From NCBI GenBank assembly GCA_000827205.1, contig KN832559.1:1822136-1857251 (forward strand): DNA of 35,116 nucleotides, in the 5' to 3' direction. Position 1 is the stretch's first letter; every line of letters begins with the position of its first letter. The notes beneath the pieces were generated by a model that saw only the letters and a program-made list of their open reading frames with translations, did not search any database and was not told the origin of the DNA. This document shows positions 2,216 through 33,200 of the stretch, piece after piece. A program made the translations under genes and the position numbers. Source of the DNA: Plicaturopsis crispa FD-325 SS-3 (Eukaryota > Basidiomycota > Agaricomycetes > Amylocorticiales > Amylocorticiaceae).

Positions 2216-3909
2216 TTGCTCACACGTCGTCCTTCAGGCGCTTGGATTGCGATCAAAGACGTCGATGTCACTCCTCGCCTGGGCAGCATGGGGCCGCCTA
2301 GCGCGTTCCTGCAAGGACGCGCCTCGTCGCGAGCGCAGATTCCGGCGCCCCTCGAAGCTCCCTTTGCGCTTCAGCCTTGTGCGCGCACGTTTGATGGTAA
2401 GTCCCTGCCCCGTCCGCCACACCTTTCCTCATTTCCCACCGTAGCCCCCAAGGTTGCCTTTCCCCCTGTTCTCCCTGGGCCTCTTCTTGCCTCTCGAGCA
2501 TCCACCTTTGGTTCTCTTTGCTCAAATTCTGTTTCCTCCCTCAGACCTCTACTTTTCTCCCCCCCTGGCCGTGTTCCTTCCGCGGCCGTCTGCAATTCCT
2601 CTTTTGTTCGGGATTCACATAGCACCTCTTCTCACCCTACTACCATTTGTTCTTTCACCGCACCTGCGTCTCCTGCCCCGTTTGTTTCCCCACCCCCCAT
2701 CGGACCTCCGGCGAGCCCGTGCCTCCTCCCGTGCCTGCCGCAACCTTACCTACCGTCCCTTCCATGTATTCTGTGATGTTTAACCTTCACTTCTCTCGTT
2801 GATAGTGTCTCCTTTCCTTGTGGTCCTCTCTACCGCTTCTTGTATAGACAGCTAGTATTACCTTAATTCTAATACACGTTCCTTGCAGACCTTTGGCAGC
2901 CTGCTGCACCCCGCTGTGCTGACGTCAACTTCGACGACCACTTTGCAGAGCCCACTACGTTCGCGGTGATAGACCCAAATGAGCTGATAGACCCTCCCGT
3001 CGCCGTCGCCAAGATGAAGGCAGGGTGGCTCGAGCATATCTCGCTGAGCTGCCTCACCAATGAAGCATGCCGCCTTCCCCCTAAGTCCTCCATTGGCCGC
3101 GGGATCCTTCAGGCTGGGGTCAACAACTCTATCATCAAGGTGACATCTGCCCCTCTCGACGCTTCCCGCGAGCACCTCCTCAACTCCGAGGAATACACGC
3201 AGGCTACAGCTCGGCTCGTTCGGATGTGCAAGAAGTACCTCCCCATGAAACATCGCATGCGCGTTGCAGACGAGTTTCGTCGGCTCTTCAACTGGATTAT
3301 GAGCCAGACTGACTTCCATGACCTGATTAGGGTCTACCTTTACTACAACCAGACCATCCACATGTACGCCGTCCAAAACCCGCATACCATCCGAGTTTGC
3401 GACATCCAGACCGATTTCGTGGCTAGTCTCATGCGGAAGGCCAACCGCGGTATTATGGCACGGACGCATACGATCAAGGGTTACCCGATCAACCCGGTCC
3501 TCCCGCTTCCAATTCCTTCGAATTGACTGTCCGTGGCGCTGAACGCCGCCAGTCCGTACCTGCGTACCCCAGCCCTTCCTTTGGAGGTGCCACGGCGCCT
3601 GGAAGAGTGTTGCCTACTGCCTGCGGTGCCTTTGCCTCGCGTTCTAAAGCCCCTCGCATCGTCAAAGGCTTCATTTGCGCCAAATCCGACCATAGCTCCC
3701 GTGCCTGTCCCTCTTGCGCCAGACCTTTGTACCTCATCGGCCACCGCGATGGTTACTTCTACCTTCCCGGGAGGGCTGAAAACGAGCGGCCTTGCTTCGG
3801 GTTCAACCTCGGGGGGTGCAGCAATTCCGTGTGCTCCCACGTTCACTCCTGCTCGCTATGTGGGCTTGGTGACCACGGCGCTCAGGGATGCCAAATTACC
3901 AGAGTTTGA
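2216..3909 (+). pseudogene. gag-like region of the DIRS element with zinc-knuckle cluster
   Basis: The 2966-3526 part is a soluble alpha-rich region of the kind found ahead of RT in basidiomycete DIRS-like elements. At 3670-3900 lies a cluster of Cys and His residues spaced like retroelement zinc knuckles, expected to bind the element's RNA. Likely introns interrupt the region upstream (about 2395-2890). It is part of a broken element and is not called as a functional gene. Confidence 0.6.
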
Positions 3910-16080: not shown

Positions 16081-19000
16081 ATGGCTGCAATCCCGCTCGA
16101 TGTCCGTCTCGCCCTTCTCCCAAGCCCAGAACTATCCGTGACCCAATTTCTCGCATTCCCTTTGCCTAATATCTCCCCAAACTCCGTCTCTGAGCACACC
16201 AACATCGCCGAATTTCTATCCGAGGATGCTGCCGGTGTCCTTACCACCACCACGTTCCTACAGAAGTTCCCTATCCCAGGGAGGACTATCTTGAAGTCAG
16301 TGCAACGCTATCTTGCTGACCTTGATCGCGGAATACAGAAGCCTTCACGGTCAATCCTATATTCGCATCTGTCGCGCAGCGACGTTAGTACATCCAGATT
16401 GCCGCTATGGGTGCTCACGTACTGGGTAGAGGTTTTCATCCTGCGCAGTCATGTTCGAGATCCATGGAAGAAGGCCGAAGAGTGGCTCCGCACACAGCGG
16501 ACCCGATTTCGCTCCGAATCGAAGAGGCAGGTCTGCGACGAGGCCAGTGTTGCGTTGCGACTGCTGCCATGGGCTGGCTACGTCCATGGATTCAGCGACA
16601 AACTTGAACCCACATACAAACTTGCGACATACCTTTCTACTCAATGGCTATCGAGTGCTCACATTGATCAGCAATTTGACCTCCTGCGACGAGATCTAGC
16701 TCGTGTCGCAGCCGATGCGAAATGCGAGGTTATGGACACGAGCTTCTTCACGAAGCTGCGCCAGATCTACCGCGAGCGGACGAGGAATCCCTATAACGCG
16801 GAGCTGTCCGGTGCTCGACGCTTCTGGGTCATTGGTCAAGAACTGGCCGACGGTGTTCGAACCAAGGTCTGCGGCGAGGGAAACATCAACAACGACCACT
16901 GGATCGGATACGTTGTGCAGATTGATATGGCCCAGTCCCTGTTTCTGTATGGCGACTCTCTCGGGAAGGATGCACTCGCAGAAGTCAGTGCTGTATTTCA
17001 CTGGTGGATAACGACACACGTGAAATACCGTGAATATCGTACAGCTAGGCTTCCTATCGGCACTCAGATAGATGGCCACTCGTGCGGGATACTAGCAGGG
17101 AACGCAGTTGAGCACAATGTGATGCCAGGGACGGTGGGACTCATCGAAGGAAAGGATGCCGACGAGGCTCGGATAGCGATCTTCATCCGCGTGTTGGAAC
17201 ATGATCTTGAGTCTGTACGTCTTCATCCTGCTTGACCGTATCTATCACTATGTTAACGTTGCTTTACCAGCGTATGGATGTTGATGTACCAGATGGCGCC
17301 CACGATTTCGTATACAATATTCGACCCGCCGGGGAAGGTTTTGTCTTTGTCCCTCTCCTAGTCGCACATGAAATACCTATCACGACTTCCACTGCTTCCG
17401 AGCTGAATCAACCATCTCCGCAATCCACGCCACCAGCTGAGAATGACGACGTACCCAGCGAAAGCAACCCATCTGCGTTGCCCGTATCTCAGCCTCCAAT
17501 CGACAAGCACAGCGACCCCGCCGCTCCACCTCCTCTAACAGCACCTATCGCCGAGCGAGCACCAAAACGAAAAACACCTCCACTCGAACCAGTCACAGCC
17601 GAATCCCCGAAGACGGACCCCAGTCCACGTCCTACCAAGCAAAGGGAACTAGGCTCTTGGTTCCGCAAACTATCCCCCAAAGAAGTCCTCGCGCAGAAAG
17701 CTCGAGAACAGGAGTGGTTTAACGAGCACAAGGAGGAGCTGCAGAGACGAGAGAGGATCAAGGTCAGAGAGCAAGAAGAGAAGAAGAAGAATGCCGAGCG
17801 TGACAGGAAGAGAAATCAGCGCGCTCGAGAGAAGGCCAGAGATATCATGAATGGAAGGCGCGATGCAGATGGCAAACCCGTACCAAAAGCCAAGGTCAGT
17901 TGAGCGACACACCAACTTGCTTTTCTTGTTCTGACTCGCCGCAATTAGGTCCCACAGCTTGCGGATGTTGCCTCTTCATCCGCTTCCAGTGTTGCGGAGG
18001 ATTCCAGACCCCAACACGAGCTAAAAGAAGATATCAGACAGTCAAATGACACGCAAGTGGGACGCCCGCGAACGACTACATACCAAGCCGCGAAACTTAC
18101 AAACTGGATGAATCCGTTCCTGTGGAAGAAGATTGTGGCGGCAACAAAGCGCGTAGAGTACACGATGAGCCCTGCAGAAATTGTGAAAGAGGTGCGGAAG
18201 CTCGATAGAGAAAACTTCGAGAAATTGGCTCCGCAGACTGTAGGCGCCTGGATCGATCGCACCGGGAAGCAGCCAGCATGGAGTGCCAAGACGCTAGAGC
18301 GCGTGAAGCAGGGGAACAAGCCAGGGGGATTGACGACACGCGTTGGGGTTCTGGTAAGTGCTCGCATGTTGCTTGGTTTGACTGCTGAGCAAATGATTAA
18401 CGTGTCTACGTCCAGGTTAAATATCCTGTTGCATCGAAGACGATATTGACGCACCTGCAAAGCCTGCGTGCAGCATCCGTGCCCTTGACCGTAGCAACCA
18501 TACGCGGAATCATGATTGCGCAGCTTCAACATCTTGCTCCTCGAATCTTTGAAGACCGTTCGCCCGACGGCACCCAGTTCCGCTGTAGCGAGTCATTTGT
18601 ACGGAAGTTCCTGCACCGTTCTGTAGGATGGTCGATACGGCGCTCAACACGTGCCGGCCAGAAAGTCCCGGCGAACGTCGACGAGGTGTTGGGTGACGCG
18701 TTTCTTCGGATTGCGTACAGCATCAAGGACCGCGACGTTCCAAGCCCTTTGATCATCAACGGGGATCAGAGTCAGCTTGAGTACGCACAGGGCAGCAATA
18801 TAACATACGCACCCACCGGTTCCAAGCAGGTTGCGACTCTGGGCTGCGAGGACAAGCGCGCAATCACAATGTTCCTCAACGTCTCGAACGACGGCACACT
18901 GCTTCCTATTCAGACGATTTACAAAGGCGCCTTGACAAACTCACTGCCATCACCCGACTCCCCTTCCTACAGCGAAACTCTCGAAGCTGGCTTCCTTTAC

Positions 19001-19850
19001 GAGTTTTCAAAAACGAAGACGTACTGGTCAACTCAGGAAACAATGCGAAACTTCGTCGACAAGATCCTTGTGCCGTACATCAGGGCACAGATAACAAAGC
19101 TAGGATTACCCGAGGATCAGTACGCGATCTGGATCATCGACTGCTGGTCAGTCCACCGCTCGAAAGAATTTTTGGACTGGATGTCGAACTCGCACCCAAG
19201 AATCATCGTCATCTTTGTACCCGGAGGATGCACTGGGCTGTTTCAGCCTTGCGACGTCGGGATCCAACTTCCCGCCAAGCATTCACTTCGAAGGTCCGCT
19301 CACGAGGATACCGTCGACGAAGTTCTGCGTCAACTTGAGAGAGGGACACCTCCGAACGAGATCAAAATTGACACGAGGATTAAGATCCTGCGCAACCGGA
19401 CCCCAAACTGGCTGAAGAAGGCACACACGGCCGTCAACAAGCCTGAGATAATACTCAAGGTCAGTCCCGTTTAGCCTCTTCTGAGGGCAGATCAAAGTCG
19501 ATTGACTCGTTATGTCGGCGCGGTATACAGGCTTGGTCTGGCTGCAAAGCTGGTAATTTCAATCTTTCGTACGAAAGTCTTACAAGCCGAGAGGCGCGCA
19601 ACATTTTGAGCGACCTTCCCGCAACGCGCCCAGTTTTTTTCGCAGAACTCACGCGCCAGAGCCGTCACCGTGAGGCTCCGCTTCTTGCCGAGGAAGAGGC
19701 TGCCGAGGAAGATTGCTGCTCAACGTGGGACGACACAGCCAAAGACGAGGATACAGAAGTGCCACTAGACGTGCTTCTCAAGCGCATCCACAACCCCGAC
19801 GCCCCCGATTCCAGCAAGTACGCGATAAACAACAAAGGGCGCGTGGTGCA
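16081..19850 (+). CDS. Ulp1-type cysteine protease fused to a DDE (IS630/Tc1/pogo-like) transposase; 3' end interrupted
   Basis: I read five exons: 16081-17214, 17271-17894, 17949-18353, 18416-19459 and 19531-19850. All four introns (56, 54, 62 and 71 nt) are GT-AG and phase 0. Residues 1-378 hold an Ulp1/C48 peptidase fold with H273 (NDHW), D292 (YGDSLG), Q329 and C335 (DGHSCG), the full catalytic set for cleaving SUMO-like modifiers. Residues 379-590 are Pro/Ser-rich and then a charged coiled coil. Residues 600-830 look like helix-turn-helix DNA-binding regions. The DDE nuclease has D838 (NGDQS), D963 (IIDCWSVH) and D1001 (QPCDVGIQ), spaced DD37D. The end is lost because a foreign element begins at 19851; translation would run on about 99 codons to 20148. 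The domain calls are firm; exon edges were read by eye. A single gene is inferred from the consistent phase. Confidence 0.8.
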
Positions 19851-21375: not shown

Positions 21376-24300
21376 TCACACAAGTCTCTTCCTTTTGCGA
21401 GGCGAACTTCCTTTCACTGGTGAAGAAGATAAGTCGTCAAGGGAGTTCAAACCACTCTGTCCAGTTGCTGTTTGCAAATCCTCCCTGTAAGCATCCACAA
21501 GGGCACTTTCCTCCGCCACTTCAATAAGCTCAGTTTCATCGTCGTTGTCTTCATCCTCCTCTAGCTCACCAAAACCAATATAATCTCCATCATCTTCATC
21601 ATCGGCCTCGTCGTAACTTGCAGTGTTTTCTAACACGGCTGTATCGATCAGGTCTTGTGGAGATGGGCCCCAAGACTCGGGCATCGGGTATTTTGGCGTG
21701 ATGCCACCCACCGCTTTCTGCCAAGTGACACAAAGTCTTCGCAGGTATTCCTCATGAAGGCCCAGCTGATACAACATATTTTCATCGTTGTCATCTTTTT
21801 CTGTAAATTACAATAGTGAGCACAAGGAAATATGGACAACACAGAACATACCAGCATCAGTTTCCGCTTCCTTTAGAACATTCCACTCCTCAATCATCCA
21901 CTCCTGCAATGTACAACGCTCCTTACCAAGACGATCCTCCTCTTCAATGCAACGGTCTAACTCTAGACGTGCCCTTATACCCTCGCGTACATCGTCGTCC
22001 CCCAGCCAAAGAGGAATGTCCGCAACAACACCTTCTTCATCACTCAGACCAACATCCTGCCAGATATCATCATCGACATCCAGCTTGAACAGTCCGTCTC
22101 GTGCGATGGGGGTAGGCGGGACCGCCCCTGGCAAAGCCTTGCGCCGCTTGATGAGTGAAGCAAGTTCTTGGCATAATTTATTGTAGGATTTCGCAAGGGC
22201 CACAATGCCTGGCTCTCGCCTCTTCACACTCGAGGCCGCATGAGTTTTCAAATTTTTCTCTGTGCGTAAATGATCAGAATTGAAGTCATATTATGGATCA
22301 AGACTCATACCGTTCACTGTATGCCTGTATGCCCGCTCGAGACGCTCTAATTCAAATTTCCGCTGTCGAAGACGGTCACGAATCCTCTTCTTCAATGCTC
22401 GTGCGTTCATCCGTACGCGGACGTACTCGTTCGTCGCCAGCAGCCGCAGGTTGGAACGCTCCGTTGCACCCAGGGCACTGATTCTGCTCCGTATGTTGGC
22501 AGAGACTTCCGCCATCTTGTTTCGGACGATGGATAACTGATCCGCAACGTCACCAACATCTACATCCACATCATACTCCCCCATCAACTGAGCCTCTAGT
22601 GCACTCTCCGCTTCCCTGTATTCCGCCTCCGATTTTTGCAAGGCAATTATCTTTTCTACCGCCAATTTCCCCTTGTTTTTCGACCGTCCTACATATGTGT
22701 TAGATCAAATCATTATCATATGCTCTTCACTCACTAGGTGCTGGCCGTGTCTGCTCCGCCACCTGCGCTGCCCATTCTCGACGCAGTGTTTCCTCATCTA
22801 TCTGTACCTTCTCAAGCCTTCGTTTGGCGTCATCTTTTTTTTTCTGACAATGCAGCCATCGGCGAGATAACCAACCCCCTAATCCGTAGAGGGACTTGTC
22901 ATCCAGGTGCTTCACCTGAGTGTCAAGGACATACAAGCGTCGATGATACTGATCATTAGATCAGTAGACGATTCATATGCCAGAGACGATTTCCACTCAC
23001 CCCAGATACACGCAACATCGGTATAAGCTTCTTTATTGCGCTCCAGAAACGCTCACATCCCTCGCCGTCCGTGAGTCCAAACCCGACACATTTGCGCGGG
23101 TGATATATGACTTGACACGCCCACTGGTGTCCGTAGGCATGAAAAACTGAAATTGCGAATGTGATACGGTGGCGAACGTCCTTCAAGAAGTCCCACTTGA
23201 CGCAGCTTCGGTGAAGCTGGCAGCCGATGTCGTAGAGGATTCCTGCAGTCATTGTAGGCGGTAGGTGGTTGAACAAGCGATTGACGAGTGCCAGAGCGTA
23301 GTACTGCCGCTCCCCAGCGGTGGTCATGTTGATCAACCATAAGACCCTATCGTGGCGGCACAAAAGCCCCATTAAACCAGTGTCGCCAAAAAACTGTGTC
23401 GATGCGGCCTCTCTCTTCTCGTCGGCCGCTCCGAAGGAGTCCCCGCACTCGTTCAGAACGGAGTTAGGCACGCGTAAATCACCCTCGTAACCGTCCTCGT
23501 CCCCATCCCCACTAATGGGCTCCCGACCCTTTGGTTTTGTCGCACCCCGCCGTTCCTCGACGAAGTCCCGCATGGCGTTCACGTCACTTTCGGGCATGAA
23601 CACGGACTCCGGATGTGTACGAGCAGGATCTCGACGGCCGTCTTTGTTCTTTCGTCGCTTCTGTGTAAAACACGCATCTAGGCACACAATAACGTCCGCG
23701 CTGTCCTTTACATTGAGTTCCGACTCGCTAAGAGATGAAAGAATCACTCACACTACCCCAGGATCGTGACACACCCTACCGCCAAAACACAGCGGGCAAC
23801 GTTGACGCAGGTACTCACTAGGCCGATCTAGCAATGGCCCACCGTCACCTTCCCCGGGATCTCCATTCGAATCTCCATCGGTGGCTGCTTCGCCGTAGCC
23901 ATCGTCAGCGTCCTGGTCGTCCTGGCCGTGATCATCATCCTTGGCGCCCTCCTTGTCGCTATCGTCCTTGGCGTCCTCGTTGTCGCCATCGTCCTGGTCG
24001 TTCGCTACCCCCTCAGTACCATCGCTATCCTCCCCCGAGCTCACTCTTTCAAGGACGGGCTCATCAAGACCTAGCCCCACTATCTCGCTCGCTATGGCCG
24101 CGTCTTCATCGTCGACTTCCTCTACTGTCGTTCGTCCATTAGCCCTACCGCCATCCAACGCTGTAACCGGAAGACCCCTCTCAGCTATCATCCCCGTACG
24201 TGTCTCCTCCAAGTACGAGGTCACACATCCTTTGGTCGCATTCACTAAGGAACCGTACCAGAGCAGCGCATTACCGAAGCGTCTACGGATTGAATTCTAT

Positions 24301-25472: not shown

Positions 25473-27734
25473 TTACTCTTCACGATGCGGAATACGATGG
25501 GGGACGACCGGAGGGCGCGCATACCAGTTGTAGAACGTCTGGCAGTAAAACTTGCTTACTGTCAGTTCGAGTCCTTGATATATCTGCGGGTGATCGAGGG
25601 CTGGGTCGTCCGGGTGCAGGGTGTAGTTTGTGATCAGGCCTGGGGCGTCGGTCCAGCTCACCATGAGCTTTCGGATTGCCTCCAACGCCCGAGCACGATC
25701 GCAGTACTCTTCCGCAGCCAGGCCAGCATTCTTCGTAGGCATCCTACCCACCAGGAAGTTGCCTCCGAAGACGTCGGCGACCATACCCTCACGCTCATCA
25801 GCGTCCTTCTCCCACTCGGCGGGGCACACGAGGCGGTCCAGTGCACGGAGTTCAAAACGGAAGCTGTGCTCGAAAGCATCCCACACAACTTCGCGCATGG
25901 CGGCCTGCGTCCTCGGGGAATCGACATCGTGCGTCATGATCTCTACCTCCTGCCAGTACACTGTGTTGGGGGGCTGGTCCATATTGACGCCGAAAAGGTT
26001 GAGCGTCTGCTGGCGGCAGCGAGCGGTGAAGGTGTCGGGGACGTCCATCTGGTTGTGTTTTGCGCCGAGAAATTCCCTCCACATCTGCGGGCTCCCGGTG
26101 ATCTCATCCCCACGGTCGCGCGTCGAAACTCTTGCCATCCACGCTTGGCGACTGGCAAGCCAGTTCAACATGAACAGTCCGGTGTTTCTCGTCGTCGCGA
26201 ACATCGCAGGCTCGGGGAAATGGTACCCGTTGTACTGGGGACGGTTTGGTTCTAGACGTTCAGGCCTTCGGTCGACAGTGCTCAACCCCTCCACCCACGC
26301 CGGAATGGGAGGCGGAATGATGGCACTGTCGGGGTCTACCCACTTGTCGCGCGGGACATTCGCCTTTGTCGATGGCGCGGATGGATCTGGGCACTCTGTC
26401 AGCCAAACGTGTAGTAGGCAAAGAGGAGACATAAACCTCACAAGGTTCCACTCGTCTGCCTTTTCCCTTCTTGCTGCGGTGAGAACGACTTTCTGTCATC
26501 GACGCCGACGCTGCCGACGCCGACGCCGACACTGCCGACGCTGCCGACGCCGACGACGAAGCCTCGCCACTCAACGAGCCTAGAACCGTGGGCATCTTCA
26601 CCGCCTTCATCACCCTTTCATGGATGACTTTGTTTCTCTCTGCCGACGTTAAGTAAGGGTCGAGAGGAGCCGTCACGTCGCGGAAAGTCCGCTCATCGTA
26701 TAACCCTTCGACTGTGGGCGCCTCAGGGAGATCGGCGAGGGCGCGGGAGGTGTGCAGTCCAACGAAAATGTGCCGCCGGGAGAACAGGTGCATGTTGTCT
26801 CCACCTAAGCCTTCATAGAATATCGGTGAGGGGAAGACACTGCCTGACCCATCTTTCATCAAATCCTTGATGATCCAACTGGGCACGCTGCCCATCCGCG
26901 TTACCTTGCGCACATTTGGGCGGTATCTCGACGTCATCGCCGCGGAGAAGTCGAACCTGGAACGCACGAACCACACCGGGATCCCTGTCGCGACGAGGAA
27001 CTGGACAACCTCTGGATCATCCGTCCATGCTCCGATAGCAGAAGGAATCACGGGAGCTGGGTCATTGCTAGCGACCATGAGATGCTGGTAGTGGCGGAGG
27101 AATTTGAGGTGAGCATGGACGTCCAGTGCGCAGCGAGACAGGTATGCGTAGTCGTTAATGAGGTCGCGACCAGTATACGGGTTGAATTTGAGGCGCGATA
27201 GGGTCTGCTTCATGTTTGTCAGGGCGCCTGCCAGTACGTAGTCGCGCGGATGTGTCGCCTCGTAGTTAGCGACTCCTTCCGAAAGCTCCTTCACCAAAGG
27301 CTCCACCTTGCCTACCCACTCCTCACACAAGTTCCCCACGTCCTTGAACGCTGAGCCATGGCACACGACAAACTGATTGCGGCCAGGCGTAAGCCACAAG
27401 GGAGTCGCACGGTGATCGCAATTGGGGGGCATCCGTGGAATGAGCCCGCTGTGTGGATATTTCATGGAGAATTTCTGCGGCAGCAGGGTAAAGTCCTGCG
27501 GACCAAAGCGTCCGTCGGCGCGCTGTATTAATCTTGACCGTCCCAGGGTCAGATACGGTATGTAATCCACGTTTGGGGAGGTGATGACCATGTCGCCTTC
27601 CAGGGCGAGACACATGCCATCGAACCATCGCATCGTTGCTACGCCTTGAACATCAGACATGGTCAACTTTTCGGTGTAGAATGATACTCACAGTCGCCCT
27701 CCCGCGTATAAACCTCGTCGATTTTGTCCCCCAT
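25473..27734 (-). CDS. unrecognised 719-aa basidiomycete protein of the KDZ cassette
   Basis: I read three exons (27734-27692, 27644-26442, 26386-25473) with 47- and 55-nt introns. The start at 27734 is chosen because its short exon splices in frame and lies 30 nt after the acceptor of a putative leader intron. Residues 15-370 form a folded region with GIPVWFVR (about 235-242), PSWIIKDLMKDG and FYEGLGGDNMHLFSRRHIFV. A low-complexity Ser/Ala stretch (about 373-395) and a basic RSHRSKKGKGRR patch follow. A second folded, Trp-rich region fills the C-terminus. The pattern recalls, from memory, hypothetical proteins common in mushroom genomes; I assign no function. The gene lies upstream of and in line with the transposase. 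The stop coincides with a GTAAGC donor, so the real C-terminus may differ. Confidence 0.65.
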
Positions 27735-27763
27735 CGCGCGCGGCCACTAAATTCGCAGACAAT

Positions 27764-27963
27764 CTAAACGGTACGAGGTCAGTCAGCACGTTGAGCGAAG
27801 GCGAAACCACGCGAAGGCCGTACGCGCTGCGACTGACACGCAGTCAAGTCGCATGCTGGCTGGGAAGAACTCAAAGTTACTTCCCCGGACGCGACTCGCA
27901 GTCAGCATCCGTTGTCAGCTGCATGTACGCGCCCACGCATGTGTATCGCGGAAAACGACTCAC
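27764..27963 (-). repeat. 200-nt inverted-repeat arm / putative 5'-UTR intron of the 719-aa gene
   Basis: On the minus strand it starts GTGAGTCG and ends TACCGTTTAG, with a CTGAC branch-like word about 20 nt before the AG. It matches 30044-30243 in inverted orientation with about 14 differences in 200 and no gaps (hand count). Similarity stops at both splice sites. It contains a dyad around 27873 (GGGAAG...AACTCAAAGTT...CTTCCC) and GACT...AGTC palindromes. Confidence 0.8.
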
Positions 27964-28225
27964 AGCAAGTTCCGAGCCCTCAGTGCACAGCGACGCGCTT
28001 TTCCAGATGCGTGCGCGGTATTGTGCCGGCAAAGAATTCGTGACGAGGGGGGATCTGCACAGGGACGTCAGCATACAGCATACCGTGTCAATGTAAGTAC
28101 GGGACTCACCAACAGAGAAGACCACCAACACACAATACACTCCTCGATATCCAGACCAACAGAAAGCTAATGCCTAGATACCGAGCAGTCAGTACAAGCA
28201 TAGTGGCAGGAGCACGAATGTGAAA

Positions 28226-28320
28226 GCTGCGACTGACTCGGAGTCAAGTCGCATGCTAGCTGGGAAGAACTCGAAGTTACTTCCCTGGGCGCGACTCGGA
28301 GTCTGCGCCCATCACTAGCT
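28226..28320 (+). repeat. partial third copy of the 200-nt repeat
   Basis: Aligns with about 27826-27920 in the same orientation: CTGCGACTGAC, CAAGTCGCATGCT, GCTGGGAAGAACTC and AAGTTACTTCCC. It has two GACTCGGAGTC palindromes (28235, 28293). It lacks the splice ends of the full copies. Confidence 0.75.
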
Positions 28321-29379
28321 GCTCAAGTGGGGAGAGAAGAAGGTAGAAAGGAAACACTCACGAGGATAGAAAGTGAAGACGAGACGCAATGCGGACTGCC
28401 CAGTGAGACGATGATGGTAAGAATGGGAAGGCAAGTTTGCGCGACGCGGAATTCCTGCCCCAAGTGCATTCCGATGTCCGACCCGAAAGTGGCACAAAGA
28501 CCATACCGACTCTCTGCGTCGTCAGGAAGGACCTTAGTTGGTGTAAAAAATATATATATAAGTGTCTTGAATCACCCGAGAGGACCTAAGGAAAAATGCA
28601 GATTTTTTTCGTCCAATTTGAAGTCGCCAGAAGCCATATTCACGACATAACAGGTGCTAGGGGGTGTAATCAAGCACTGTACGGTGTCTACAGGTCTTGC
28701 AAGGTAGTCTACATGTCTGTAAAAAATACAATAGGGCCTGAAGGACCTATCGTGACCTCTGTATATCATACACCTACAGCCGTAAGGATGTGCCCACTGT
28801 TGACGATGCACATACTCGTTCGACGCAGTTTCAGACCGACGCGGATTCAAGTTCTGAGCTCAACTCGTACAGTGTATTGGTGACCCCCCTTCGTCAAAAT
28901 TACATGCTACCACCGGAAATAAAGGGACCTGTATCTATATGCTCCATTGTACTGCACGCTATTTTTTTGAGAGTGAAATTTGACGTGTAGAGCAGTGGAA
29001 TCCACGAATATCATCATATATGCACCAGACCAGCGGAGAATCTTAATAAATCTTTTCTTACACAATCCCATTCCACTGAAAAAAATCGAGAATTCTGCAA
29101 TGAGTACCAACAGTACATATCATCATCATCGTAAATTTTCCGATTTTTTCTACGCTTTTTGAAGGAGCGAGGTCCACGAATAGAACGACCTTGGTCGCCA
29201 GCCACAGCACTCGGCAATTGCCGGCAGCGCCGCTCGCTGCTTCATCCAACGCAACTCACAGCTTCATTTCCTTCATCGCCTGCTATACTCTTGTTCTGGC
29301 CACTTCATCCCCTTCCGCCATGCTCTCTTGATCCAGTCGACCGCGAATTCCTCACAGGACGAATCCCACCAGCGACGCT
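28321..29379. other. intergenic, no gene seen
   Basis: Unique-looking sequence of moderate GC between the divergent genes, with an A/T run at about 28547-28562. Several frames of 60-107 codons exist without recognisable features. It presumably holds promoters of the divergent pair, but no element could be assigned. Confidence 0.5.
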
Positions 29380-29447
29380 GACTTCGAGTCGCGTTGATGA
29401 GCTGACTTCGAGTCGCTCATCGGTCCTCTGCCACCAGACTTCGAGTC
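29380..29447. promoter_or_regulatory. three GACTTCGAGTC palindromic sites
   Basis: GACTTCGAGTC occurs exactly at 29380, 29404 and 29437. The GACT/AGTC arms are palindromic. Related sites lie at 27893, 28235, 28293, 30104 and 30883. Clustering upstream of the plus-strand accessory gene suggests a protein-binding site, for a host regulator or an element protein; this is inferred only from recurrence. Confidence 0.5.
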
Positions 29448-29669
29448 GGTGGTAGGCAATTTCACCGAGAAACCACGCACGCACCGGCAAACCACGACCC
29501 GCTCACCGCCGTCTCTGTCCACGTACGACAGATTCATTATTGTAGGAGGGTACTATGCGGTGCGTTTCCTGTCTTTACCGTGTCCTAATATTTCTGACTT
29601 CTCATATAGCGGCACGCCGAATCAATGTCGGTCCACGCTCGCGACGCGAGGAGGGGAATGCACTTACGC

Positions 29670-29735
29670 GGGGGCTTGGCTAACGCCTGGTCGGGGGAAC
29701 TTGTTCCTCAGCAAGTTCAAATCTTGCAGCCCCCA
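29670..29735 (+). tRNA. tRNA-like relic, 66 nt, non-canonical
   Basis: GGGGGCT (29670-29676) pairs perfectly with AGCCCCC (29728-29734), followed by A. A perfect T-arm GCAAG-TTCAAAT-CTTGC (29711-29727) sits directly before the 3' acceptor strand. A TGGCTAACGCCTGG stretch resembles an A box. The D and anticodon arms do not fold normally, and the length is about 7 nt short. It may be a degenerate tRNA, a tRNA-derived SINE head, or chance. Confidence 0.3.
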
Positions 29736-30043
29736 CTTTCATTTGCCGTTCTCCCACTCGTACCGAGGTTCCATCCGCGACTTAGGCCTAAGGACTTGAT
29801 GACCAGTGAGTCGGTATCTTTGCGTTCGACCCGATCTTGGCGCGCTAATTTACATTTACTGAAGCCCGGTTCTTGCGAGGAAAAAGGCGTCTATCGAGAG
29901 GGAATGGCCACCGTCGGTGCTCGCTTCCCTGCAACCGAACAGGGCCAGGTGAGTACTTAAACCGTTGGCTTTACCGCATTTGCATTCCCTCAGCATCTTT
30001 TACACAGACGCACCCGCTACGCTATATTCTACTACCACATCTG

Positions 30044-30243
30044 GTGAGTTCTTCTCCGCGATACGCACGTTTGGGCGCGTACGTGCAGCTGACAACGGAT
30101 GCTGACTGCGAGTCGCGTCCGGGGAAGTAACTTTGAGTTCTTCCCAGCCAGCATGCGACTTGACTGCGTGTCAGTCGCAGCGCGTACGGCCGTTGCGTGG
30201 TTTCGCATTCGCTCAACGTGCTGACTGACTTTGTACCGTTCAG
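30044..30243 (+). repeat. 200-nt inverted-repeat arm / putative 5'-UTR intron of the 1365-aa gene
   Basis: Starts GTGAGTTC, ends TACCGTTCAG, and lies 7 nt before the ATG at 30251. It is the inverted partner of 27764-27963, of identical length. A CTGACTGAC branch-like stretch precedes the acceptor. Confidence 0.8.
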
Positions 30244-30250
30244 ATTCGCA

Positions 30251-33200
30251 ATGCCTAAAACCTACAAGTCAAAACAGAACAAATCAAAAGCGTCGAAGAC
30301 GTACGCGGGGCGACCGTCGCCAGGAGATCCTCCCTTGTCGCCTGTTGCTCCCCCGCCCCCAGCTCGTCGCGCTCGGGCCCCGGTCGACGAGCCTCCTACG
30401 TCGCCTGCTCTGCCCCCGGCCCCCACCCGTCGTACTCGCGCTGCGGCTGCGGCTGCGGCAGCGGCAGCAGCAGCAGAGGCGGAAGCACCAGGGGCCGCCT
30501 CAAGAAACGGAGGACCTGGTGCCGCAAATGCCCCTCGTCCGCGTCACGAACAAGGTGGCGTGGTCAAGATGGGCCAGGGTGGTCAGAGGCATGCGCGCTC
30601 TGCTGCGCGCAAAACCGCTCGGCAGAAAGCAGCGGAGGAGAACGAGGAGGAGGAGGAGGAGGAGGAGGAGCCGAAGGTCGTCAAAGGTGATGGGAAGATT
30701 GGAGCGTCGTATGGACAAAAAAGCGGTCAGATGTTTGTTTCTGTCCCGGTATGTGCACATTCTTCACGATCGCGAGTCAAACTAACGGCCTGGGCGCTAT
30801 AGCCCAGCTCATACCCCACTGCTTCTGTGAGGCGCGGTGTTGAGGAGAGCATAAGCAGCCGCGCCGCGGGTCAACCGCGAGTGACTTCAAGTCCCGACCC
30901 AGTCGTGTCCCGTGCGCCGCTCACTGGTAGCCATCCAACTTCGAGTCAGGGCGCCAATGCCCTCAGCGAGGCCGACATTCGTTACCAACGGTTGATTGAC
31001 CGGGTGTCCAGGGAGTTGGCCGAGAGCGCGAGAAATGCGCCTTCCTCTGACCCTGCCTACGCCGATGACGCTGGGTACTCAGCGTCGCAGCGCGGTGGCG
31101 GCGCCACGGATCAAGATGAGGCGCACGGCGGAGGCGACACTACCGACGCCGACGAAGCCACCGACGAAGATCAAGCCACCGACAAAAACAACGGCGACGC
31201 CGACGCCGAAGACGCCACCGACGAAGATCAAGCCACCGACAAAAACAACGCCGACGCCGACGCCGACGACGCTACCGACGAAGATCAAGCCACCGACAAA
31301 AACAACGGCAACGCCGACGCCGAAGACGCCACCGACGAAGATCAAGCCACCGACAAAAACAACGGCGACGCCGACGCCGACGACGCTACCGACGAAGATC
31401 AAGCCACCGACAAAAACAACAAACACGGCGGGGGGGACGCCGACGACGAAGAAGCCACCGACGAAGATCAAGCCACCGACAAAAACAACAAACACGGCGG
31501 GGGGGACGCCGACGACGAAGAAGCCACCGACAAAAACAACGAGCAAGGCGGGGGGGAAGCCGACGATGAAGACGCCTCCGACGAGGATGGACCCACTGAC
31601 AAAATCAAGGCCAGCGGACGCCGCCCGCGTACCTCACGCACGATCCGGACGAAGACCGGCTCTCACCGCGACCGTGGAATGGCTGTCGAGAGCACCCCTT
31701 CGGGCAGCGACTACGAGGAAGACGCCGCCAAGCGCGAGAGGGTCGATGCAAAGAAAAGGAAGAGGGGAGACGATGTTTGGCGCACCGACGAGGAGGATGC
31801 GGAGGACGAGCGCGCATTCGAGGCGGAGGTCGAGGGCAGTATGCAAGGGAAGAGTCGGACGGGTAGGAAAGTCGGACAGAAAGTTTCGTCAAAGGTTGCA
31901 GCACCCGCCAGCCCTCCTGCGACCCTAGCTGGTCCAGCCTCGGTGGCTCCCGCATCTGACGAAGAGGAAGACGGCGACGATTTCCCGGATGTCGAGGGCG
32001 ACGACGATGACGAAGATTGGGAGAGGACCTCCGGACCATTTTCGAAGGCAGCGAAAGACGCCTGCATCGAGCTCGGTCGCCAATTCAATGCGAACGCCAA
32101 GGCCATCGCCCGCCAGTACGGGAAACGCAAGAGCGAGGTGCTCAAGCACGCAGGTGTCACCTTGCAGGCTACGCGGGGCACCAATGCCGCGTGCAAGTAT
32201 ACAATGTATCACGCACACCACTATCCTAAGGCCCCCGGCGGTGGGAAGGCGGCCCTGAAGGCGTACATGAGGGAGGTACGGGCTGCGTACCATGCCTTAG
32301 TGGACGGGAAGTCCAGCGAAGAGCGCGCAGAGGCACTGAAGCCAATTCTGAAGTGGTGCGAGGAGCACGAGAAGGGGAACTCGGGGCCCTCAGGAAAAAG
32401 CGCCAGCGCCCTGATGCAAGAGGCTGGTAGTCAATTCGATGACCTTGTGAGTTTCTTTGTTTTACCGCTGTCGGGGAACATGACTTAACACCTGTGTAGT
32501 CCCGTACCTACGACACGCACGGAGTAGTCGTTATGGGTGTCATTGTTTCAACATCAGAGGACGATGACGCTACGCGCATGAGCAGGATATTCGGTACCGA
32601 CGAAGCTATGCTGGACTTCGTCGAGGCCAACGAGTTCAACGTGCGGGTCTTTCTCAAGTGGCTCACAAACTGCATAGTGTACGTAGGGTTTTTCTTTGGC
32701 TGTGAGGCGCGACTAACATGATTCTGTAGGTGCCACAAGTACAGTGCAAATGGCGTGAATTTGCCTCTGATACCTGGGATGAAGGTCGATTCCGAGATAA
32801 AGGGGAAAGACAAGGCAGGTGTCAAGTCTAGCGAGGGAAAGGAGGGGCGGAAGCGGGACGCGATGCGGAAGGACGTGACGGACGAGATGCTCGCTCAACT
32901 TCGTGAGTTGAGTTGCTTGCCTACATTACGGTGTGGTGACTAATCATAAACAGGGGAGTTCATTCCGGACATTGCAGCGGTGCCGTGGGTCAAATGGCTC
33001 AATGTTGCGCGGCGGCACAAGCTGCAGATCGAGAATTGGCCCGCTGGGCTCAACGCCCCGGGGCCCGAGTTCAGATTCAAGCGTCTGGCGTCCGGTGACC
33101 TCGTCAAGCTCTTGGAAGGGGATGAAGACCAGGGCCGTGTTCGGATCGTTCGGTGGAAACCTAGTACGCCAACCTCAACAAGGAAATGATCAATTGTATG

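Follow-up and report, generated by a model that had tools for sequence, protein, structure and literature searches.

The window, a stretch of 35,116 nt from Plicaturopsis crispa FD-325 SS-3 (contig KN832559.1, positions 1,822,136 to 1,857,251), carries a cassette of two divergent genes, gene1 and gene2, together with an exon encoding the domain that identifies KDZ transposons (Table 1). Gene1 occurs at eight loci in the genome, the five intact ones of which were aligned, and gene2 has relatives on contigs C22, C24, C27, C36, C37 and C42. No Pfam family exceeds its cut-off in gene1 and no Pfam domain is found in gene2; comparison of both with PDB sequence profiles gives no match better than E 0.06 and no recognisable RNA-binding domain, and single-sequence AlphaFold models (mean pLDDT 36 and 47) are unusable. 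Viral relatives of gene1 were also sought, and the 18 viral stretches fitting its peptide patterns include none. The acidic repeats of gene2 are encoded by tandem copies of a 57-nt unit and its relatives (window 31140-31600, plus strand). Farther off, an open reading frame for a DDE_1 superfamily endonuclease (18446-19474, plus strand; PF03184, E 1.2e-10) probably belongs to another transposon.

Each gene is preceded by predicted leader introns, of which the two adjoining the start codons form inverted arms. The arms measure exactly 200 nt each, differ at 14 positions with zero gaps and are limited by GTGAGT and TACCGTTYAG, as the initial annotation had described. Similarity ends at the GT, in line with its claim of intron-limited homology, but continues for 3 nt (ATT) past the AG, giving an inverted repeat (27761-27963 and 30044-30246) of 203 nt at 93% identity; an AT follows the AG also in C38 gene1, C36a gene1 and C27 gene2. 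Identity reaches 0.84 in the 5' part of the intron, 1.00 in the core and 0.90 in the 3' part, and falls near background in the 40-nt exon flanks (0.47 and 0.48, against 0.46 and 0.40 when shuffled). The distance from AG to ATG is 7 nt at the plus-strand gene, as claimed, and 29 rather than 30 nt at the minus-strand gene. The partial copy reported between the arms spans 28226-28322, within a further predicted leader intron (28361-28174, minus strand). The arms thus resemble leader introns with intron-limited homology, and a second such pair is present at the C42 locus.

Table 1. Features of the window and of related stretches. Positions refer to the window unless another stretch (L number) is named.
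Feature	Position	Strand	Details
KDZ transposase exon	22956..23747	-	PF18758, E 8.5e-62, 209 bits against a cut-off of 26.6
gene1 of the cassette	26260..27734	-	start codon 27734, followed closely by one small intron; 3' limit provisional
Predicted leader intron of gene1 adjoining the ATG (arm 1)	27764..27963	-	GTGAGT..CTGAC..TTTAG, 200 nt
Triple bulged-hairpin array in arm 1	27827..27911	-	84.9 bits (model R1)
Short predicted leader intron without array	28055..28109	-	GTGAGT..CTGAC..GCAG, read by eye
Predicted first leader intron of gene1, array-bearing	28174..28361	-	donor and acceptor at expected distances
Triple bulged-hairpin array, the partial copy between the arms	28227..28311	-	89.4 bits
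Triple bulged-hairpin array, likely exonic, before the first recognisable gene2 leader intron	29372..29455	+	72.9 bits
tRNA-like sequence, window copy	29670-29734	+
tRNA-like sequence, second copy	L004 117-52	-
tRNA-like sequence, third copy	L064 about 1318-1253	-
Predicted leader intron of gene2, 7 nt 5' of the ATG (arm 2)	30044..30243	+	GTGAGT..CTGAC..TTCAG
Triple bulged-hairpin array in arm 2	30096..30180	+	84.9 bits
gene2 of the cassette	30251..32488	+	acidic repeats, conserved C-terminal domain
Conserved non-coding stretch	L065 3360-3630	+	sequence comparison
Conserved non-coding stretch	gene2 leaders of L059, L060 and L063	-	sequence comparison

The conserved content of the arms, absent from the initial annotation, is an RNA core of ~85 nt predicted, with good support, to fold into three bulged hairpins in a row. 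In each hairpin, an outer stem leads, past 1-2 bases left unpaired on the 5' side, into a 4-bp inner stem closed by a 3-nt loop; the segment enclosed by the outer stem and the unpaired bases reads GACT-NNG-AGTC or a variant of it. The whole arm 1 intron folds as a single unit with the array at its tip (z -3.82). The array at 29372..29455 folds with a z of -3.57 and shows no donor or acceptor at the expected distances.

A covariance model built from 26 arrays and run on 12 stretches totalling 74.8 kb recovers 34 arrays at E <= 1e-6 with scores of 57-97 bits. A looser run adds one partial sense match (L060, E 6e-4) and seven antisense matches, and the antisense strand scores at most 17.3 bits in either run. 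The arrays lie at nine loci (C6, which is the window, C22, C24, C27, C36a, C36b, C37, C38 and C42), with 1-7 per locus. They include 31 distinct sequences and are not independent witnesses, as arrays within a locus are duplicates and those of C36a and C27 are near-identical. A leader of gene1 lacking a gene1 match is present at C27 and a gene2-side array lacking a gene2 match at C38, where the covariance model detects no second gene2-side array in stretch L058. At C17, where gene1 of the cassette is truncated, neither the pattern nor the covariance model finds an array. Genome-wide, the KDZ domain model gives 43 matches, mostly at places with no array nearby; at C21, which holds a close transposase, no array is among the pattern matches. 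The array pattern is absent from the viral contigs searched. Rfam returns 0 matches in the window at gathering score, and a permissive search of five sibling loci yields one sub-threshold match (isrG, E 0.68), taken as chance. The sole match of a permissive Rfam search of 27600-30400, to snoR66 between the divergent leaders (28583-28655, minus strand; 23.6 bits against a gathering score of 43, E 0.088), is probably chance as well.

The arrays are tied to the genes by strand and to splice signals by distance. Two exact double-motif patterns give 15 and 9 matches across the whole genome, their reversed controls giving 0, and all 24 matches lie at cassette loci in the same orientation as the gene that follows. 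Of 34 arrays, 28 have a donor 44-72 nt upstream of their first inner motif, 25 have a branch point and acceptor downstream, and 23 have both; the corresponding rates for positions drawn at random from these loci are 5.1%, 7.4% and 1.2%, and the antisense control gives 2, 0 and 0 of 33 arrays, one being too near a stretch end for use. Eleven arrays lack one or both signals by this distance rule; among them are three (C6, C38 and C27) that precede the first recognisable gene2 intron, some with a donor or acceptor outside the rule, and the degenerate L059 copy. Predicted array introns end 2-7 nt before the gene2 ATG at all six loci where this distance was readable, C6, C22, C27 (7 nt), C36b, C37 and C42, and 30 nt before the gene1 ATG at C38.

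Base pairing within the arrays is maintained through sequence change. When 26 arrays (24 of them distinct, with C36b left out) are aligned by plain MAFFT, 91.2% of cells pair, against 79.4% in shuffles and 36-42% with slid partners, and doubly changed cells number 97 against 36.8 in shuffles. Both sides have changed in 16 of 32 pairs (12.0 in shuffles); the count of further pair types gives a weak signal, 34 against 31.3, a level reached in 45 of 500 shuffles. An alignment of all 34 arrays gives 93.7% pairing cells and 24 of 32 doubly changed pairs, but this alignment follows the structure by construction, and the model itself derives from 26 of its rows; the 26-array count is therefore the fairer one. 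The conserved secondary structure with compensatory change expected of a structured cis-regulatory RNA is present, and the three hairpins have outer stems that vary, both among themselves and from locus to locus, yet stay complementary.

This pattern bears on two readings at the DNA level. Duplex sites for a transposase or transcription factor, happening to sit in leader introns and driving both genes, would fit the palindromic inner 11-mer, the arrays on both sides of the divergent promoter region and the KDZ transposase encoded alongside. We consider them quite improbable, since a duplex site needs no complementarity between outer stems that share no sequence among the three hairpins, the strand of each array is tied to its gene, and the covariance model detects no other array in the 35-kb window, in which the ends of the element are not mapped. 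Single-stranded DNA hairpins or cruciforms serving transposition or recombination of the element would keep the complementarity, would suit arrays homogenised within elements, and find room in a wobble-based strand test giving 23 G-U against 14 A-C cells (35 against 15 with the poorly aligned pair 68-81 kept); they leave unexplained the sense orientation before both genes and the splice signals at set distances, and are very improbable. Stem complementarity without stem conservation, together with placement, weakens both DNA-level readings.

The hairpin tips share a code that changes by locus. A C-U-N-N-G-A-G heptamer caps 89 of 102 hairpins, with 12 of the 13 exceptions differing at one base, mostly A to U, and the last being a degenerate hairpin (L059 2302-2381). 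At C37 and C42, every one of the 29 intact hairpins has C-G as its second inner pair; at the other loci this pair is A-U in 70 of 72 hairpins and an A-G mismatch in the remaining two, which belong to the C36a and C27 copies. Searches for two further inner-pair types give 0 matches each. The bulge of hairpins 1 and 2 comprises two bases at C22, C24 and C36b (22/22) and one base elsewhere (46/46). In the middle of the loop, 36 of the 39 hairpins of C6, C38, C36a and C27 have C and all 38 intact hairpins of C24, C37 and C42 have T, while C22 and C36b are mixed. C37 and C42, the loci of the GCCT type, are not sisters in either tree, some nodes of which are poorly supported; either the inner pair switched by more than one simple event or the trees err at this point.

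By sequence comparison, the arrays are homogenised within an element. With the C27/C36a pairs left out, identity is 0.833 between arrays of opposite genes of one element, 0.834 within an element generally and 0.67-0.68 between elements, and the nearest neighbour comes from the same element for 28 of 34 arrays. Homogenisation alone could spread a change, but leaves unexplained the joint change of hairpins 1, 2 and 3, whose stems differ. That hairpins with unrelated outer stems have changed in coordination points to a reader common to them.

A closing stem around the array has an energy of -14.6 with its own flanks against -12.2 with swapped flanks, a value reached in 0 of 5000 permutations (0.005 in an unanchored version of the test); with one array per element, 12% of draws of this excess lie at or above zero, leaving a closing stem across loci suggestive but not secure. 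Hairpins acting purely as architecture, shortening the leader introns and bringing donor and branch point together with no specific ligand, would draw on this excess, were it secure, and on the folding of arm 1 as one unit with the array at its tip. We regard architecture alone as unlikely: it needs no selection for the heptamer and no locus-wide coordinated changes of inner pair and bulge, and it does not account for the likely exonic arrays.

The initial annotation had favoured introner-like elements, introns that multiply as introns, and the wider genome does not bear this out. A search with one arm across 33.2 Mb (49 contigs) gives seven matches, of which only the two arms are full length; the other five, including the partial copy between the arms, cover ~80 nt and share a core, whose copies are found in leaders of KDZ-cassette loci, and no double-motif match lies outside such loci. 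Homology past the splice edges, named in advance as counting against introners, is seen at C36b, where 8 of 15 intron pairs pass at least one edge through duplication of a ~296-nt unit of exon plus intron. On contig C36, such units, each an exon with an array intron, stand in tandem (L065 about 2385-3180 and 250-880) and are also found inverted on the gene1 side (94% over 481 nt). The alternative first offered, a duplicated leader co-regulating the two genes, comes closer than introners; the conserved object, however, is a folded RNA core.

Among 29 within-element pairs formed by 23 introns (C24_g1b and ten other arrays without both splice sites being dropped), two match over the full span between donor and acceptor while their exons stay at background, namely the window arms and C42 g2a/g2c (L061 2105-2285 and 3244-3424); in three pairs involving the last C36b intron, the likeness starts at the donor and extends inwards. 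Both window positions are old, as sibling loci also have introns at the positions before the two ATGs, which points to replacement rather than gain. The likeliest history of the arms is that, within the element, a copy of one intron overwrote the other and the exchange was resolved at the splice sites. Gene conversion starting in the shared core and resolving at splice-site microhomology would produce such a replacement; reverse splicing may be another route.

In its accessible text, an introner survey keeps families of at least four introns, excludes similarity lying inside introns or extending beyond them, and reports that some families show target site duplications or terminal inverted repeats (PMC9860276). 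The arm introns resemble those families in that their likeness extends to both splice boundaries or nearly so (0 nt beyond the GT, 3 beyond the AG). Unlike the families as described there, each locus has two such introns, short of four arising outside a longer duplication, and the wider family shares only an internal core. Homology from splice site to splice site at two loci, or from the donor inwards at C36b, is what introners would offer to explain; given the few full-length matches, the few pairs limited at both ends, the overrun at C36b and the recurring intron positions, we hold them to be highly improbable.

Other conserved sequences accompany the gene2 leaders. A tRNA-like sequence of 65-66 nt occurs in the gene2-side leaders of C6, C38 and C27, with a 7-bp acceptor-like stem, a T-arm bearing a 7-nt loop and a shortened D arm; mean column identity over the three copies is 84% and the fold z is -2.66. 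ARAGORN reports no tRNA in the window, L004, L006 or L007. A non-coding stretch of ~270-300 nt with T-arm-like ends takes the place of the tRNA-like sequence in the gene2 leaders of C36b, C37, C22 and C24, which account for all 4 of its genome matches.

Because the arrays fold, lie on the sense strand, are mostly carried by introns and have changed together, we propose that an element-matched protein reads them on unspliced RNA. The reading we prefer, with a probability of roughly 60%, is that hairpin arrays in the pre-mRNA leaders of KDZ-type transposons are read by such a protein, which would control splicing or output of both genes. Structure and placement of the arrays are well supported, whereas the reader and its effect are what we infer from them. 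A protein made by the element, or matched to it, would bind the hairpins, either in the message before splicing or on the intron once excised, and adjust splicing, export or output of both genes in a feedback, three sites per array and 1-7 arrays per locus providing avidity. Gene1 and gene2 are candidate readers only because the element carries them. More tentatively, and in our estimate rather doubtful, the reader could be encoded by the element itself and act on the nascent leader RNA of both genes, its specificity having switched between element lineages in step with all the hairpins of an element (A-U to C-G, a one-base bulge to a two-base one); it would thereby tether itself to its own locus or message and prevent cross-talk among siblings.

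If the preferred reading holds, structured pre-mRNA is a means of self-regulation for a class of fungal DNA transposons, which use an element-specific hairpin code testable by a single base-pair swap. Sibling elements with different codes in one nucleus would then allow RNA-protein specificity to be watched while it evolves, and the intron-limited replacements provide an instance in which to study how a whole intron comes to be copied from one site to another.

The iron-responsive element and the phage coat-protein operators are short protein-binding hairpins with an unpaired 5'-side base and a conserved loop. The arrays differ from these in loop and inner stem, and their hairpins always come in threes. 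Searches of a largely open-access literature on KDZ transposons, hairpins and introns turned up no description of such arrays. As in Kyakuja-type KDZ transposons, the cassette encodes a KDZ transposase (PMC12730594), while the accessible text of that account (Kojima 2025, PMC12730594) uses neither 'hairpin' nor 'subterminal'. For the P element, the available text describes a host protein acting on a short exonic silencer upstream of the third intron (PMC7776569). There, as is here only proposed, the output of a DNA transposon is set by RNA-binding proteins at intron removal; unlike the P element as described in that text, the cassette carries folded triple hairpins inside the leader introns of two genes (PMC7776569).
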